From Anaerolineales bacterium (GTDB lineage Bacteria; Chloroflexota; Anaerolineae; Anaerolineales; E44-bin32): 6,127 nucleotides of DNA. Below are positions 1 through 6,127 of the stretch, piece after piece. Both the position numbers and the translations under genes were made by a program. The notes under the pieces were generated by a model. It had not been told where the DNA came from, searched no databases, and saw only the letters and a program-made list of their open reading frames with translations. The stretch is taken from NCBI GenBank assembly GCA_011772595.1, contig WVZH01000420.1, positions 14,353-20,479 on the forward strand. Reading direction: 5' to 3'. How positions within the stretch are numbered: position 1 is the first letter of the stretch; the number at the start of each line of letters is the position of its first letter.

Positions 1-665
1 CGGGCGTCGCGGACAAAGGTCATCATTTTGAGTGTGTCCATCCCCCAAAACATCCCTCGGAAACCTGACCCCTCAACGGACAGGAAGGAAATTCCCGCTT
101 CGCCAGCCATAGCTTTTGCCAGCATTGTTTTTCCGGTACCAGGCTCACCGAACAGCATGATGCCGTTGATGTACTCCCCCCCCATCTCGATGAATTTCGA
201 GCGGTCTGAAAGCAAATCAATCCATTGCGATACCAGCTCGACCAAGGCGGGTTGCCCCCAGTAGTCGTCGAAAGTCACTTCTTTTTGATCACCAGGCCGG
301 ATGACGACTTTACGAGTGCGACTGATGAACCAAAAAAGGGCACCGAATTGAACAACCATGAAGAGAATAGCAAACAGCAAACGGCCTATGAAACTAAGCG
401 CGTAGAGAAGGATGTCCAAATTCGCGGGGTCTTCCATGGCCCAGAGGACGAGAAAGGTCGGTAGCGCCAGCCACCAAAAGTGACGTAATTTGCGTATGAT
501 GTTTGATAATCGACTTCGTTGTGGCCCATTTTTAGACCAGGATCTTTCAAAATGATTCCCCTGTTTTTGTGCTGTGATTTCTTGGTCTCCAACGGTTGAA
601 GTCAGATTTTCTACCTCTGCTGCACCGCCAATGGCATCAACATTTGAGGGATCTTTTTCGCTCAT
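1..665 (-). CDS. FtsH-like membrane-anchored AAA+ ATPase, N-terminal part (3' end outside window)
   Basis: The visible 221 codons encode a cytoplasmic, polar N-terminus (residues 1-61), a hydrophobic hairpin (about 63-77 and 84-114) and the beginning of an AAA+ domain. The frame is still open at the window edge. The AAA part starts with VTFDDYWGQPALVEL (130-144), equivalent to the VTFxDVAGxxEAK segment of FtsH, and contains a Walker A motif GEPGTGKT (173-180). Basic residues flank the hydrophobic block on both sides (RKLRH at 58-62, RTRK at 116-119), which predicts both termini inside the cell. The ATG at 665-663 is chosen because an AGGTGA Shine-Dalgarno lies at 671-676; a GTG three codons upstream is possible but has worse spacing. 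In FtsH this architecture drives ATP-dependent degradation of membrane proteins. Whether a zinc-protease domain follows cannot be seen, so the protease function is not established. Oddities are the near-absent external loop and an altered pore-loop region (FWGMD, where FtsH has FVGVG). Confidence 0.85.
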   Translation of the reverse strand, partial: MSEKDPSNVDAIGGAAEVENLTSTVGDQEITAQKQGNHFERSWSKNGPQRSRLSNIIRKLRHFWWLALPTFLVLWAMEDPANLDILLYALSFIGRLLFAILFMVVQFGALFWFISRTRKVVIRPGDQKEVTFDDYWGQPALVELVSQWIDLLSDRSKFIEMGGEYINGIMLFGEPGTGKTMLAKAMAGEAGISFLSVEGSGFRGMFWGMDTLKMMTFVRDA

Positions 666-853
666 CGGTTTCACCTACTTGTTACAATAATCACCATTAC
701 CTCAGTCAGAAACATGCATACCATATCTATCGACATGAGGTAAACCACTTTAGGTTTCCGAAGGCGTCCCTCTCCTTCTCTCCGTAAAGATGGACATCTC
801 TCGTTGGTTAACCGCTTTCCTCATTTGAGGAGGCGCGAGAGCTAAGTCTTGCA

Positions 854-1915: not shown

Positions 1916-2608
1916 ATGTTGCAAATCAATTCCACGCGATATCCGAAGGGCTTCATTTTATTGCTCGTGACGTTTGTAATCCTAATGTACCCACTAGCTG
2001 GTTGTTCGGCCATTGGGGGGCAGGTCCGGGAGGATGAGCGTGAGGAGGAATTGGCTCCCGAAGGCACATCGAAGGACGAGGATCGTGAGAAGCAGGATGA
2101 ATCCGAGAGGTCAGAATGTCCGCAAACTGATGTCCAGGTCCTGGTGGACTATGTTCATATCATTATCATGCGGCCGCCTGAGGGAGAGGTCAAATTGACT
2201 GCTCCAGCGGCAGCAGAGTTTTTCGTTACTTTCCGGGGCGATGGAAGCATCGACAGTAACGACTATGAGAACCGTATTCCTGTCTTTCTCAGCGGGACTC
2301 TGGATGATTGCACGATTGAGGGAGAGGGGGAGCTAAGTGCAACGTTTACGGGTACGTGCAAGAATGGATTCGTGAACGTAGATATTGTTGAACGACTCCA
2401 TGGGTCGACAGCCACAATGACCTGTCCGGAAGAGGGTTCACAGACCGTCAGTCTTGAGGGCTTGTTCTCCGCGCCGGAGGAACTCGCACAGTTTGAGCTC
2501 AAGGGTACAGAATACAGCCATGTCCTGGAAGCGGATGTCGTGGCGCAATCGCTTTATTACAGTTGGACGTTCAAATTTGGCTGGGAAGTTGAGCCCCTTG
2601 CTCCGTGA
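1916..2608 (+). CDS. Predicted lipoprotein, 230 aa, family unknown
   Basis: The N-terminus has a basic/polar start, a hydrophobic core (about residues 12-26) and a lipobox LAGC at 27-30. This predicts cleavage by signal peptidase II and lipid attachment at C30, with the protein anchored on the outer face of the membrane. A very acidic and basic linker (about 35-67, rich in E, D, R and K) follows the anchor. From about residue 71 there is a globular domain of mainly beta character, with four further cysteines in the mature protein (C68, C132, C148, C170), which could form disulfides outside the cell. The ATG is supported by GGAGG at 1904-1908 with 7 nt spacing. It stands alone: the gene to its left diverges from it and the gene to its right converges on it. 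I do not recognise the domain and assign no function. Confidence is high for a surface lipoprotein gene and nil for activity. Confidence 0.85.
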   Translation: MLQINSTRYPKGFILLLVTFVILMYPLAGCSAIGGQVREDEREEELAPEGTSKDEDREKQDESERSECPQTDVQVLVDYVHIIIMRPPEGEVKLTAPAAAEFFVTFRGDGSIDSNDYENRIPVFLSGTLDDCTIEGEGELSATFTGTCKNGFVNVDIVERLHGSTATMTCPEEGSQTVSLEGLFSAPEELAQFELKGTEYSHVLEADVVAQSLYYSWTFKFGWEVEPLAP

Positions 2609-2725: not shown

Positions 2726-4351
2726 TCACCAAGGAAGGAATGAGGTATCGACATACGATAGATAAAAAGAAAATCCCGGTGCTCTTTGGGATGCCATATT
2801 GGGTCTGGATCGCTCAACCAAAACAAGTGCATCCTCGGACACCCAACCGACTTTATTGCCGATGTCGACCCACCACCAGTGTGTTCCCTTGGCAAGCACG
2901 CCGTTCGTATCATTCATGTGTGGCAAGATCACCCCGCTTGCATCTTCGGGAACGGTTCCACGCAGTGCGAAATTTGTCCCGGGGCCGAAGTACACCCCTG
3001 TGGATTGTAGGGTCTTTACCTTATCCCGCACTTGGAAGGAATCCGAGCGTTCCATCGGCTCTACGACGACCATCATAATGCCGTTCGCCACCTCGCGCTC
3101 TGCACCGTCGGAAGGTGAATTCATCACCTTTCCATTGACCCACATTGTAGAGGAGCCGCCGCCATCTTGATTGATCCCCCATCGAGCACCTAGATCGTCC
3201 CTACAAAACATGGCCAATTCGTCGCTCGTCATGCCAATGCTGAAGTTTTTCTGGCGGCCATCGACGACGACGAAAAAGATGTATTCGTCGTTGTAGCAGA
3301 TTGCAGTGCGTGGGTGCCGTTGGGTTGCTCCAAGATTATCATCAAAGCTTTGGATCTTACCGTCTTTTAGGAAATAGAAGCTCCCGCTCAGACTCGCATA
3401 GGTGTTGGCCCAGCCGACGTTGAGCGCATTCTCACAATCAGACTCAAGGGATGTGATCTCCAGGGAAATCCCAACGACATCACCTACCCTCACCGTGTCG
3501 AGGAGTTTCCTGCTTTCGCCGGCACCATATGTCGAAATCACGATCTGGTCGAAAGGTATCTGGATTGGACCCTTTTTGAATTGAACCTCGCGCACGATAC
3601 CCACCGTCATGTCCGGATATGGTCTAACGCCAAGAGGGCGGGTGAGTTGTATGCGCACCTCCGCATTTCCACTCCCCGCATTGCTTTGTTTATCGAATTG
3701 GGGAGTGAAAAGGATGGTTTTTTCACCTCGGTCGCGGAAGTTGATGTTGTCGATTTGGATAGTTTTACCCGTTGTCAGGTTCGTAAGGATTTGTTTTTCA
3801 GGTGGGTGGTACGTGCACTCACCGATAAACGCCGTTCGGCTTTGCTTCCATGCAAATCCACTCGAGCCACCTAAATCGCCGTACGTTTTCACATACCATC
3901 CTGAGTGGACGAGTCCACCCGAGGTCACGCCGGTGTCTGGATTGTAGAAGGTGCCGTTGATCGCGACCACGACGTCGTTGCGAGGTCCCCAGGGTTTGAG
4001 TATTGGATTGGTGGGTCTTCGACCATCCGAAACGGGAAAGATGGTATCTTCCTTATCCGGTCCGGGAGCCCAGGCGCTCAGCGATTGATCATAACGGTCC
4101 GCCATTTCGCTTACCGTTTCCTTGCCTCCCGAAAGCTTTCCCTGGGCAATGCTAGTCTCGAGGATTAGATTTTGATTACTGCGATCCATACGGGCCACGT
4201 AAACCCGCTTAGGACCAGTTAAGTGGAATTCCTGATAATCGATTCCCTCAACGACGGTCTCCCAACCCGTGGAAAAGGCGGGCATACTCAGCGCATATGC
4301 GCTAAGCGTCAGGGAAAGTAGGACCAATACCAAGAAAGATCGTCGTTTCAC
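2726..4351 (-). CDS. Exported phosphodiester glycosidase (NAGPA-type) domain protein with C-terminal SH3b domain
   Basis: A signal peptide (residues 1 to about 27, MKRRS then a Leu/Val-rich core ending near AFS) predicts export. The NAGPA/DUF2233-like domain covers about 125-430. It begins near VVVAINGTFY (127-136) and carries the family's conserved C-terminal half: HPRTAIC (346-352), VVDGRQ (362-367), NQDGGGSST (394-402), NSPSDG (411-416) and EREVANG (418-424). In the family these surround the active site; known members remove N-acetylglucosamine from phosphodiester-linked sugars, and bacterial members are generally envelope or exopolysaccharide related. The exact substrate is not deducible. 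Residues about 438-513 form an SH3b-like domain (FGPG at 455-458, HWWWVD at 491-496, GWVSEDAL at 502-509), usually a wall- or glycan-binding module. A 28-residue tail follows. The start is GTG at 4351-4349, supported by AGGAGGG at 4361-4367. It is divergent from the sigma-factor fusion, which bears a similar SH3b module. Confidence 0.9.
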   Translation of the reverse strand: MKRRSFLVLVLLSLTLSAYALSMPAFSTGWETVVEGIDYQEFHLTGPKRVYVARMDRSNQNLILETSIAQGKLSGGKETVSEMADRYDQSLSAWAPGPDKEDTIFPVSDGRRPTNPILKPWGPRNDVVVAINGTFYNPDTGVTSGGLVHSGWYVKTYGDLGGSSGFAWKQSRTAFIGECTYHPPEKQILTNLTTGKTIQIDNINFRDRGEKTILFTPQFDKQSNAGSGNAEVRIQLTRPLGVRPYPDMTVGIVREVQFKKGPIQIPFDQIVISTYGAGESRKLLDTVRVGDVVGISLEITSLESDCENALNVGWANTYASLSGSFYFLKDGKIQSFDDNLGATQRHPRTAICYNDEYIFFVVVDGRQKNFSIGMTSDELAMFCRDDLGARWGINQDGGGSSTMWVNGKVMNSPSDGAEREVANGIMMVVVEPMERSDSFQVRDKVKTLQSTGVYFGPGTNFALRGTVPEDASGVILPHMNDTNGVLAKGTHWWWVDIGNKVGWVSEDALVLVERSRPNMASQRAPGFSFYLSYVDTSFLPW

Positions 4352-4505: not shown

Positions 4506-4543
4506 CTTTTCTAGCCTTTTTCGTAATAGATGTCACAAAAGAG

Positions 4544-4566
4544 CTCTCCGATACGTTAGAGAGGTG
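4544..4566 (+). promoter_or_regulatory. Shine-Dalgarno of the sigma fusion, within a small hairpin
   Basis: AGAGGTG (4560-4566) with about 6 nt from the GAGG core to TTG at 4571 fixes the non-ATG start. CTCTC (4544-4548) can pair with GAGAG (4559-4563) across a 10-nt loop, partly covering the ribosome site. A five-pair stem is weak, so a role in translation control is only a possibility. Confidence 0.5.
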
Positions 4567-4570
4567 TAAG

Positions 4571-6127
4571 TTGTCAGAGGATAGTTTGAAGGTAGTCGGG
4601 CATGTAGATGTCACGTTGGTTCAACAGGCTCAGCAGGGAGAGGGTGAAGCATTTGCTGCGCTCTTCAATCAACTGCACCAGCCAGTGTTGAACTACATTT
4701 ACCACATGCTTGGGAACCGCCAGGTGGCAGAGGATGTCGCGCAGGATGCTTTCATTCGCGCCCACGAGCGTATTGGCCAGCTTGGCCCACCCTGGGATTT
4801 CAAATCGTGGGTCTTCCGTATTGCCAGCAACTTGGCGGTTGATTATTTACGCGGTCAGCGACGATTTGTAGATCATGAAGAGCCGGAGATGATGGCAGGC
4901 CCGCCTACTACTCGACGACCATCCGAACGCGGCGTTCAGCGAGAGGAGGTGCGTCGCGCAGTTCGACAGACTCTGGATGGTTTGCCGACAGTTTACCGCC
5001 AAGCACTTGTTTTGCGTGAGTTTAACGGTTTCAGTTATCGAGAAGTCTCCCAGGCGCTCGAGTGCACGTATGACAACGCTCGACAATTGGTACATCGGGC
5101 GCGATTACGTTTCCGAGAGCAACATGGACTTCGAATGACTCTCGAAGAAGGTGTTGAACGCTGCAGGGAGTTGGGAGATCTCCTTTCCGCTTATCACGAT
5201 GGTGAGATCGATACGAAACAACGTAAGGCGGTCAGGGCTCACATCTCTGCCTGCCCACAATGTCGGGAAACGGAAGAAGACTTGAAGAAGGTCGGTGCGT
5301 TAGTAGCGGGATTGGCACCGATATGGCCTTCGGAAGGTTGGATGGCGCAAGTTTTAAACCAGGTGGGAATTCAGGAGGTTCCTGCGCCCGTCCCGGGAGG
5401 CGTTGGGGGCGGGGCGGGAATAGGAGGAGGAGGTGCAACCGGCGGTGGGATCAAGGCTTTCATGATGAGTGGCAGCTGGATGATGAAAGTGGGAGCGGTC
5501 GTCATGGCCTCCATCCTCGTAATGGGGGGACTGGTTCTCGCCTCTCTCATTCTGTCGCCGCCGCCACCTCCGCCTCCGCCGTCTGAGACCACCCAAGCGG
5601 TCACAACCGAGCCACCTGACGCAACCTCCTCGGCCCCGCCGAGTACACCGGCACCTGGTGGAGGGGATGTGGAGGAGACGTCGACAAGCACGCCGACGAG
5701 CACAGCCACCACGACCCAGACGCAAACTGCTACAGCGACCGATGGTCCGCCTATAGCCGAAGCCAACGTGAATAGCAACTGCCGCTTCGGTCCCGGTGCT
5801 GTCTACGCCATTATCGGGACTCTTCTGAAGGGAGAAACGGCGCCGATCGACGGTCGCAACGAGGATTGGACTTGGTGGTGGATCGAACGACAAGACGGTC
5901 CTGGACATTGTTGGATTTGGGATGCGCTTGTGACCGTAAGCGGGGATACCAGCGCGGTGCCGCTCATCCAAGCCCCACCCCCTCCAGAACCAGAGGACAC
6001 GGAGCCGCCTTCCGTATCCATCAACCACAGCCCCAGCGGAGGTTTGAAGCCCGACGAAACTGACGTTGTCTCGTTCACCGCTTCGGCAAACGACGATGGT
6101 GGTGTCGAGCGTATCGAGATTTGGGTT
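4571..6127 (+). CDS. ECF sigma factor fused to anti-sigma zinc finger, TM helix, SH3b and Ig-like domain (3' end outside window)
   Basis: One uninterrupted frame of 519 codons runs off the right edge. Domains in order: sigma region 2 (about 27-98, with AEDVAQDAFIRAHERI and FKSWVFRIASNLAVDYLRG); sigma region 4 (about 128-183, LPTVYRQALVLREFNGFSYREVSQ followed by a helix-turn-helix); an anti-sigma zinc finger (about 196-236, C198 then H224-x3-C228-x2-C231, the zf-HC2/ZAS pattern); a Gly-rich linker (276-293); one TM helix (about 304-328); an eight-proline run and a Thr/Ser/Pro-rich stalk (330-390); SH3b (about 397-456, NCRFGPG and CWIWDAL); a second Pro-rich linker; and the start of an Ig-like domain (about 480 on). 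This order predicts sigma and inhibitor inside the cell and SH3b/Ig outside. ECF sigma factors direct RNA polymerase to stress regulons and are normally held by a separate anti-sigma factor; here both are one chain. The TTG start is chosen because of AGAGGTG at 4560-4566 and an in-frame TAG at 4502-4504 with no better start between. Confidence 0.88.
   Translation, partial: MSEDSLKVVGHVDVTLVQQAQQGEGEAFAALFNQLHQPVLNYIYHMLGNRQVAEDVAQDAFIRAHERIGQLGPPWDFKSWVFRIASNLAVDYLRGQRRFVDHEEPEMMAGPPTTRRPSERGVQREEVRRAVRQTLDGLPTVYRQALVLREFNGFSYREVSQALECTYDNARQLVHRARLRFREQHGLRMTLEEGVERCRELGDLLSAYHDGEIDTKQRKAVRAHISACPQCRETEEDLKKVGALVAGLAPIWPSEGWMAQVLNQVGIQEVPAPVPGGVGGGAGIGGGGATGGGIKAFMMSGSWMMKVGAVVMASILVMGGLVLASLILSPPPPPPPPSETTQAVTTEPPDATSSAPPSTPAPGGGDVEETSTSTPTSTATTTQTQTATATDGPPIAEANVNSNCRFGPGAVYAIIGTLLKGETAPIDGRNEDWTWWWIERQDGPGHCWIWDALVTVSGDTSAVPLIQAPPPPEPEDTEPPSVSINHSPSGGLKPDETDVVSFTASANDDGGVERIEIWV

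Follow-up and report, generated by a model that had tools for sequence, protein, structure and literature searches.

The window, meaning the whole 6,127-nucleotide stretch that was analyzed (contig WVZH01000420.1 of an Anaerolineales bacterium, assembly GCA_011772595.1), carries at its right end a forward-strand gene that encodes a putative sigma factor, an anti-sigma domain, a membrane helix and an outer part in one reading frame. The gene runs past the window end, and its full-length database copy (P0002) has 579 residues. The features of the gene and of the region just upstream are given below.

4531..4557, + strand: promoter-like site TGTCACA-N16-CGTT, with the -35-like element at 4531-4537 and the -10-like element at 4554-4557; at -40 of the gene
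4560..4566, + strand: Shine-Dalgarno-like AGAGGTG, 4 nt 5′ of the TTG start, read from the sequence
4571..6127, + strand: fusion gene with a TTG start; residues 1-519 of 579, stop past the window end
4661..4864, + strand: sigma region 2, residues 31-98 (PF04542, E 3.2e-15, over cut-off)
4955..5110, + strand: sigma region 4, residues 129-180 (PF08281, E 4.9e-13, over cut-off)
5162..5266, + strand: zinc anti-sigma domain zf-HC2, residues 198-232 (PF13490, E 1.9e-10, over cut-off)
5393..5449, + strand: glycine-rich stretch between the anti-sigma domain and the membrane helix, residues 275-293, read from the translation
5480..5548, + strand: single membrane helix, residues 304-326, hydropathy peak from 307
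5753..5950, + strand: SH3b-like domain, about residues 395-460 (SH3_3 in P0002, E 0.0025, 18.4 bits against a cut-off of 27)
6005..6127, + strand: first part of an Ig-like domain, residues 479-579 in the full protein (Big_7, E 0.0013)

Elsewhere in the window, positions 3-674 (- strand) encode the N-terminal part of a membrane AAA+ protein, which scores 82.5 bits with FtsH models against a cut-off of 600. Positions 2726-4351 (- strand) hold a divergent phosphodiester glycosidase gene (NAGPA, E 5.9e-30), the end of which gives a weak SH3 match; beside the fusion's closest relative, at L047 (10037-11647), lies a divergent gene that is 62% identical to it.

The sigma part consists of regions 2 and 4 only, as in ECF sigma factors, and scores 90.3 bits with the NCBIfam model TIGR02937 (sigma70-ECF; cut-off 42.9). 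Behind it, the zinc ligands C198, H224, C228 and C231 are invariant across an alignment of 120 homologues. The zf-HC2 match over cut-off and the Hx3Cx2C motif, present in 120 of the 120 homologues listed, are those of class I (zinc) anti-sigma factors; the PDB match of this domain to ChrR is weak (E 3e-4). Exactly one hydrophobic segment of the membrane-helix type occurs in 118 of the 120 homologues listed, and the AlphaFold model shows the helix with low confidence. A Pro/Thr/Ser-rich linker follows, leading to the SH3b-like domain. Both outer domains are modelled as beta folds at pLDDT 92-98. Ig-like structural neighbours were found for residues 479-575, and the Big_7 score, 19.8 bits in P0002 against a cut-off of 24.1, rises over the cut-off in the homologue P0097 (28.1 bits). 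The structural-neighbour lists held no SH3b entry and barely covered the SH3b region, in which C404 and C447 are invariant in the alignment of 120 homologues. We infer an N-in, C-out topology, with which zinc cysteines inside and paired cysteines outside would agree. By these predictions, a single polypeptide joins an ECF sigma factor to a zinc anti-sigma domain and, past one membrane helix, to two outer beta domains.

A sequence-only reading of this DNA had described a single frame open from the sigma factor through the anti-sigma domain, the membrane helix and SH3b into the Ig-like domain. It had taken the domain order, that of the usual sigma/anti-sigma operon, as a sign that two genes had fused, and had considered as counter-cases a sequencing error joining two frames near 5100-5170 and homologues that consistently consist of two genes. 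The open frame was confirmed, with the stop reached in the 579-residue database copy, and neither counter-case was borne out. Our homologue search was restricted to proteins of 0.55-1.75 times the query length; it scored a candidate set capped at 7998 and found 237 homologues, of which 120 were listed, and in all 120 listed the C-H-C-C motif lies behind the sigma domain. Conserved alignment columns flank the sigma/anti-sigma junction on both sides in these homologues. Because the length window bars short unfused sigma factors, the sigma part was searched alone as well. This search gave nine matches at an identity of at least 57%. The zinc motif is present in P0122, P0124 and P0130; P0125 and P0129 end at or within the start of the zinc domain; P0123, P0126 and P0127 end within sigma region 4; and P0128 has an unrelated C-terminal tail and is possibly frameshifted. 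From the positions of their ends, P0123, P0125, P0126, P0127 and P0129 appear to be contig fragments. Among the next seven matches (P0131-P0137), five carry the zinc motif and P0131 and P0136 stop short of it, and lower matches are mostly listed without zf-HC2.

The sigma domains of fused and unfused proteins were compared in a tree of 63 chosen sequences (12 of the 120 homologues, 19 loci, 6 next-tier matches, 6 two-gene paralogues and 20 lower matches). The 37 fused sequences lie on one side of a single branch and the 26 unfused ones on the other, with support of 100/97, in a tree where P0131, cut ahead of the zinc motif, is labelled fused by kinship and several unfused rows are long-branched. 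Moreover, at L008-L012 and L015, six loci of the same genomes, sigma and anti-sigma factors are encoded as two genes that overlap by 8, 14 or 35 nt; zf-HC2 is matched beside four of the six, and HxxxCxxC was recognized by eye in the remaining ones. The single fused branch and these overlapping pairs fit the earlier proposal of two genes fused with the operon order kept. That an assembly or sequencing error merged two genes is exceedingly improbable, and we rejected the joining of frames, because the junction is identical in 120 of the 120 homologues listed, conserved columns stand on either side of it and one supported branch unites the fused proteins. As far as these comparisons reach, the fusion is real and old and no artefact.

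The fusion is found in part of the class and order concerned. With three candidates scored per genome, so that weak members may be missed, 10 of 396 genomes sampled from the class to which G001, the genome holding L001, belongs match the fusion at E 1e-40, and 19 of 400 drawn from its order match at 1e-30, 16 of them with the fusion or a contig-cut part; G415, G467 and G752 match in the outer domains only. The outer part varies among ten further fusions that were scanned: N_BRCA1_IG occurs in L021 and L022, SdrD_B in L034, weak SH3_3 matches in L028 and L037 and a weak Ig_Rha78A_N match in L018, and no named family was found in the outer part of L016, L024, L031 and L033. In the same ten, zf-HC2 is over the cut-off in six and under it in two, and L031 and L033 have the cysteine-histidine pattern with no such domain listed. 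Proteins of the same genomes at L007, L013 and L014 match only the outer domains of the fusion or its membrane helix plus SH3b (query ranges 356-542, 311-475 and 313-475, respectively).

The promoter-like site in front of the gene is the sole match in the window at up to one mismatch. An equally lax match occurs in 90 of 200 shuffles, and therefore the weight rests on its conserved position. The upstream regions of fusion genes share TGTCAC or TGTAAC, 17 bases and CGTT, and by a fixed rule the exact site starts 27-47 nt 5′ of the frame start in 16 of 26 fusion loci. Correcting an over-extended start adds L048 (its site being L071), and sites with one mismatch were found in L021 by the rule and in L017 and L023 by eye. 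The site is absent from six distant fusion loci (L024, L031, L034, L035, L037 and L045) and was found in none of the six two-gene paralogues. The other window genes lack it, with 3 matches at up to three mismatches against 3.9 expected. The -10-like CGTT is separated from AGAGGTG by 2 nt and from the start codon by 13 nt, a spacing shared by several relatives; with CGTT so near the start codon, the transcript leader would be very short, almost absent.

Across five fusion genomes (G466, G001, G002, G003 and G557), we counted 33 exact TGTCACA-N16-CGTT sites against 6 of the reversed pattern. When the spacer was varied from 6 to 26 in the same genomes, N16 gave 33 sites, N15 gave 10 and the 19 other lengths gave a mean of 3.0; with any other last base in the -10 element, 5 sites were found (control 8) compared with 33 for CGTT. 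Ten fusion genomes contain 48 matches against 8 controls, and thirty genomes without a listed fusion match contain 14 against 20. The enrichment is uneven, with 15 against 2 in G466, 6 against 4 in G557, 2 against 0 in G001 and 1 against 1 in G476. In eight genomes of a sister branch, TGTAAC-N17-CGTTNCAG gave 11 matches against 1 control; three of these sites precede fusion genes and six precede genes that pass the lipoprotein rule, the start behind L156 is uncertain, and a contig end falls at L155. The site sequences of L155 and L159 are identical, so that the two are worth little as separate cases. The site is enriched with the fusion and not where the fusion is missing, and it is likely the output of the sigma factor. 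Past the core, the sites L049-L078 often run on as CGTTA(T/C)AG and then TGAA, 27-38 nt from the site start; A stands at +29 in 24 of the 33 sites and T at +34 in 22.

The genes behind the sites were identified as the longest frame starting at most 220 nt away, and a lipoprotein was called when a lipobox followed an uncharged hydrophobic stretch. A lipoprotein gene comes next in 21 of the 33 N16 sites and the fusion gene itself in five more; four others have signal-like N termini, the product at L090 starts MLAGCNPPS and is perhaps a lipoprotein whose start is misplaced, and L055 and L068 are of neither kind. Behind the N15 sites, lipoprotein genes were found in 8 of 10 cases. In contrast, wrongly spaced control sites of the same genomes (58 sites in 57 regions, three shortened by contig ends) have a lipoprotein behind 1 of 58 (Fisher p 3e-11, N16 against these). 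Control sites lie inside long frames in 31 of 58 cases and N16 sites in 8 of 33; with those removed, the lipoprotein counts are 16 of 25 against 1 of 27. Among the 38 non-fusion products, 30 were scanned at E up to 0.01, some matches being under cut-off; SdrD_B was found in 6, Ig_Rha78A_N in 5, N_BRCA1_IG in 4, fn3 in 3, Big_7 in 2, Beta_helix in 2, CBM_11 in 1 and a weak SH3_3 in 1, with no family in 8. From these modules, the products look like multidomain surface proteins.

Two loci add detail on such genes. At L047 (2768-7840, - strand), three consecutive secreted-type genes lie behind the fusion gene, with SdrD_B, propeller repeats and N_BRCA1_IG, respectively, and the third has its own N16 site (L066). 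Within the window, positions 1916-2608 (+ strand) encode a probable lipoprotein (PLAGC) of no Pfam family and without a good site; its identity with a lipoprotein encoded at 4943-5671 of L002 is 26%, and that L002 gene does have an exact N16 site (L054), 132 nt ahead of it.

Lipoprotein genes also lie next to the fusion genes. We looked for a downstream gene at 18 of the 26 distinct fusion loci (the remaining 8 are contig-cut or have no notable frame); a downstream frame is present in 16 of the 18, and 12 of these start like lipoproteins by eye. For 11 such lipoproteins of more than 150 residues, the sensor ectodomain matches its own neighbour at E of 1e-3 or below in 8, and no match at E 1e-3 was found for L003, L018 and L034. 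The N_BRCA1_IG module shared by sensor and neighbour is 88% identical in L021 and 85% in L022. Matches of the SH3b type are at 30-40% and hit lipoproteins of other loci too, and therefore we claim no special pairing of sensor and lipoprotein. Concerted evolution of the two sets of modules was considered but is not claimed, because the identities within L021 and L022 exceed the 82% between the sensors by too little.

Overall, we consider that in Anaerolineales the fusion probably acts as a membrane-spanning, one-component switch built on an ECF sigma factor, which controls the site and the surface lipoproteins behind it. The sequence-only reading had proposed a one-component transmembrane transcription switch. 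The single branch, the invariant ligands and the specific site at the fusion gene and at lipoprotein genes fit this proposal, whereas AlphaFold gave no confident docking of the sigma and anti-sigma parts (pTM 0.37 and 0.42). At rest, the zinc domain would hold sigma-2 and sigma-4 in cis, away from RNA polymerase. When the SH3b/Ig ectodomain receives a signal, the sigma part would be let go, most likely by regulated intramembrane proteolysis and less likely by a conformational opening; we favour proteolysis because IutY and the model for ECF52, both discussed below, point there. The freed sigma factor would read TGTCACA-N16-CGTT and raise the expression of its own gene (positive autoregulation) and of multidomain surface proteins that are secreted and for the most part lipid-anchored, some with sensor-type modules. 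M50 proteases are encoded in five of five fusion genomes and likewise in all 14 control genomes. Judged from its architecture, the fused inhibitor poses a problem foreign to two-gene systems, namely that a degrading protease must halt before sigma-4. Analogues exist of glycine-rich stretches that halt ATP-dependent proteases. We did not adopt such a role for the glycine-rich linker, which is no more than an idea: simple trimming would call for a stop on the other side of the anti-sigma domain, and among the 120 homologues listed the linker is strong (glycine at least 30% of the 45 residues preceding the helix) in only 60.

The stopping problem, which any degrading protease would face, also speaks for the same switch operating without proteolysis, in which the zinc domain opens through a change in conformation, redox state or zinc and the sigma factor works while tethered to the membrane. 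The zinc ligands are invariant, and zinc domains are described as redox switches in some soluble anti-sigma factors (PMC8999054). However, the membrane-bound relatives covered in the relevant parts of PMC8999054 and PMC5826349 are cleaved, as shown for IutY, or proposed to be so, as for ECF52, and the zinc motifs of membrane anti-sigma factors are often structural according to the account in PMC7406223; we regard this version as unlikely. A different reading of the site data is that another ECF factor of the same genomes reads the lipoprotein sites and simply counts the fusion gene among its targets. Further ECF factors do occur in these genomes, and the motif is nearly that given for ECF41 (TGTCACA, 16±1 bp, CGTC) in PMC3426412. 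Against this, the enrichment tracks the presence of the fusion, and in the sister branch a corresponding TGTAAC variant precedes the fusion gene there as well as lipoprotein genes. Additionally, ECF41 itself is unsupported as the reader, as matches to the SigJ model were found in 0 of 10 fusion genomes, possibly incomplete ones, at E 1e-30. A separate reader therefore seems quite improbable to us.

Returning to the switch itself, we tentatively offer an extension that we hold to be possible rather than probable. Sensor, membrane pass, inhibitor and sigma factor in one chain might form a self-referential surface homeostat, in which the displayed lipoproteins compete with the module-sharing ectodomain for a common wall or matrix ligand, so that switching stops at a full coat. 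The sigma-inhibitor-membrane unit might then be a platform that exchanges ectodomains (SH3b-Ig, N_BRCA1_IG, SdrD_B and others) along with its target set. One-chain transmembrane sigma factors are known mainly from Actinobacteria, with few tested cases. A Chloroflexota clade with a sharp motif and predicted targets makes the release of an inhibitor-fused, membrane-fused sigma factor testable, and it suggests how these bacteria, largely uncultured, may control many of their unexplained surface lipoproteins.

That ECF sigma factors fused to C-terminal extensions are known, as the sequence-only reading had noted, holds for ECF48, ECF52 and ECF53, in which the sigma factor and a membrane-anchored inhibitor form one chain, and for IutY (PMC8999054, PMC5826349). 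In the portions of these sources that treat ECF52 (SCO4117 of Streptomyces coelicolor), as with ECF48 and ECF53, the protein comprises a sigma factor, a pfam13490 zinc domain, a membrane helix, a proline-rich stretch and an outer domain, and its release by proteolysis is a proposal. The fusion protein has the ECF52 order of sigma factor, zinc finger, membrane helix and proline-rich extension and, by this predicted architecture, would work like ECF48/52/53. As described there, ECF52 differs in being confined to Actinobacteria and in having a carbohydrate-binding outer domain and another proposed promoter motif, whereas the present fusion belongs to Anaerolineales, has an outer part of the SH3b-like and Ig-like type and is linked to TGTCACA-N16-CGTT and to a set of predicted lipoprotein targets. 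No carbohydrate-binding module was found in P0002 (Pfam, up to E 5), which shows the weak SH3_3 and Big_7 matches instead. IutY of Pseudomonas putida (ECF243) likewise has a membrane-bound anti-sigma domain fused C-terminal to the sigma factor, and is cleaved by Prc and RseP (PMC8999054); in that account it serves iron-siderophore cell-surface signalling, with no SH3b/Ig ectodomain described. ECF41 (SigJ-type) shares nearly the same site and an inhibitory C-terminal extension, but the relevant text of PMC3426412 gives it a soluble SnoaL-like extension, a -10 of CGTC in place of CGTT and other enzymes as targets; P0002 has no SnoaL-like match up to E 5 and scores 70 bits with the SigJ model NF007214 (cut-off 271). 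In SigI/RsgI of Clostridium thermocellum, the outer sensor module is of the same kind as the regulated surface proteins, as the GH10 domain of RsgI6, 57% identical to Xyn10D, exemplifies (PMC4711584), and cleavage ends in ClpXP (PMC12203970). In these sources as far as they bear on it, that system differs in consisting of two genes, in its sigma and anti-sigma families and in its polysaccharide binding in vitro. In the literature searched, with the main ECF classification outside it, we found no report of the SH3b/Ig form, the Anaerolineales clade or a lipoprotein set behind such a site. The idea is known; the Anaerolineales SH3b/Ig variant and its likely output are new, set apart from ECF52 by the features described.
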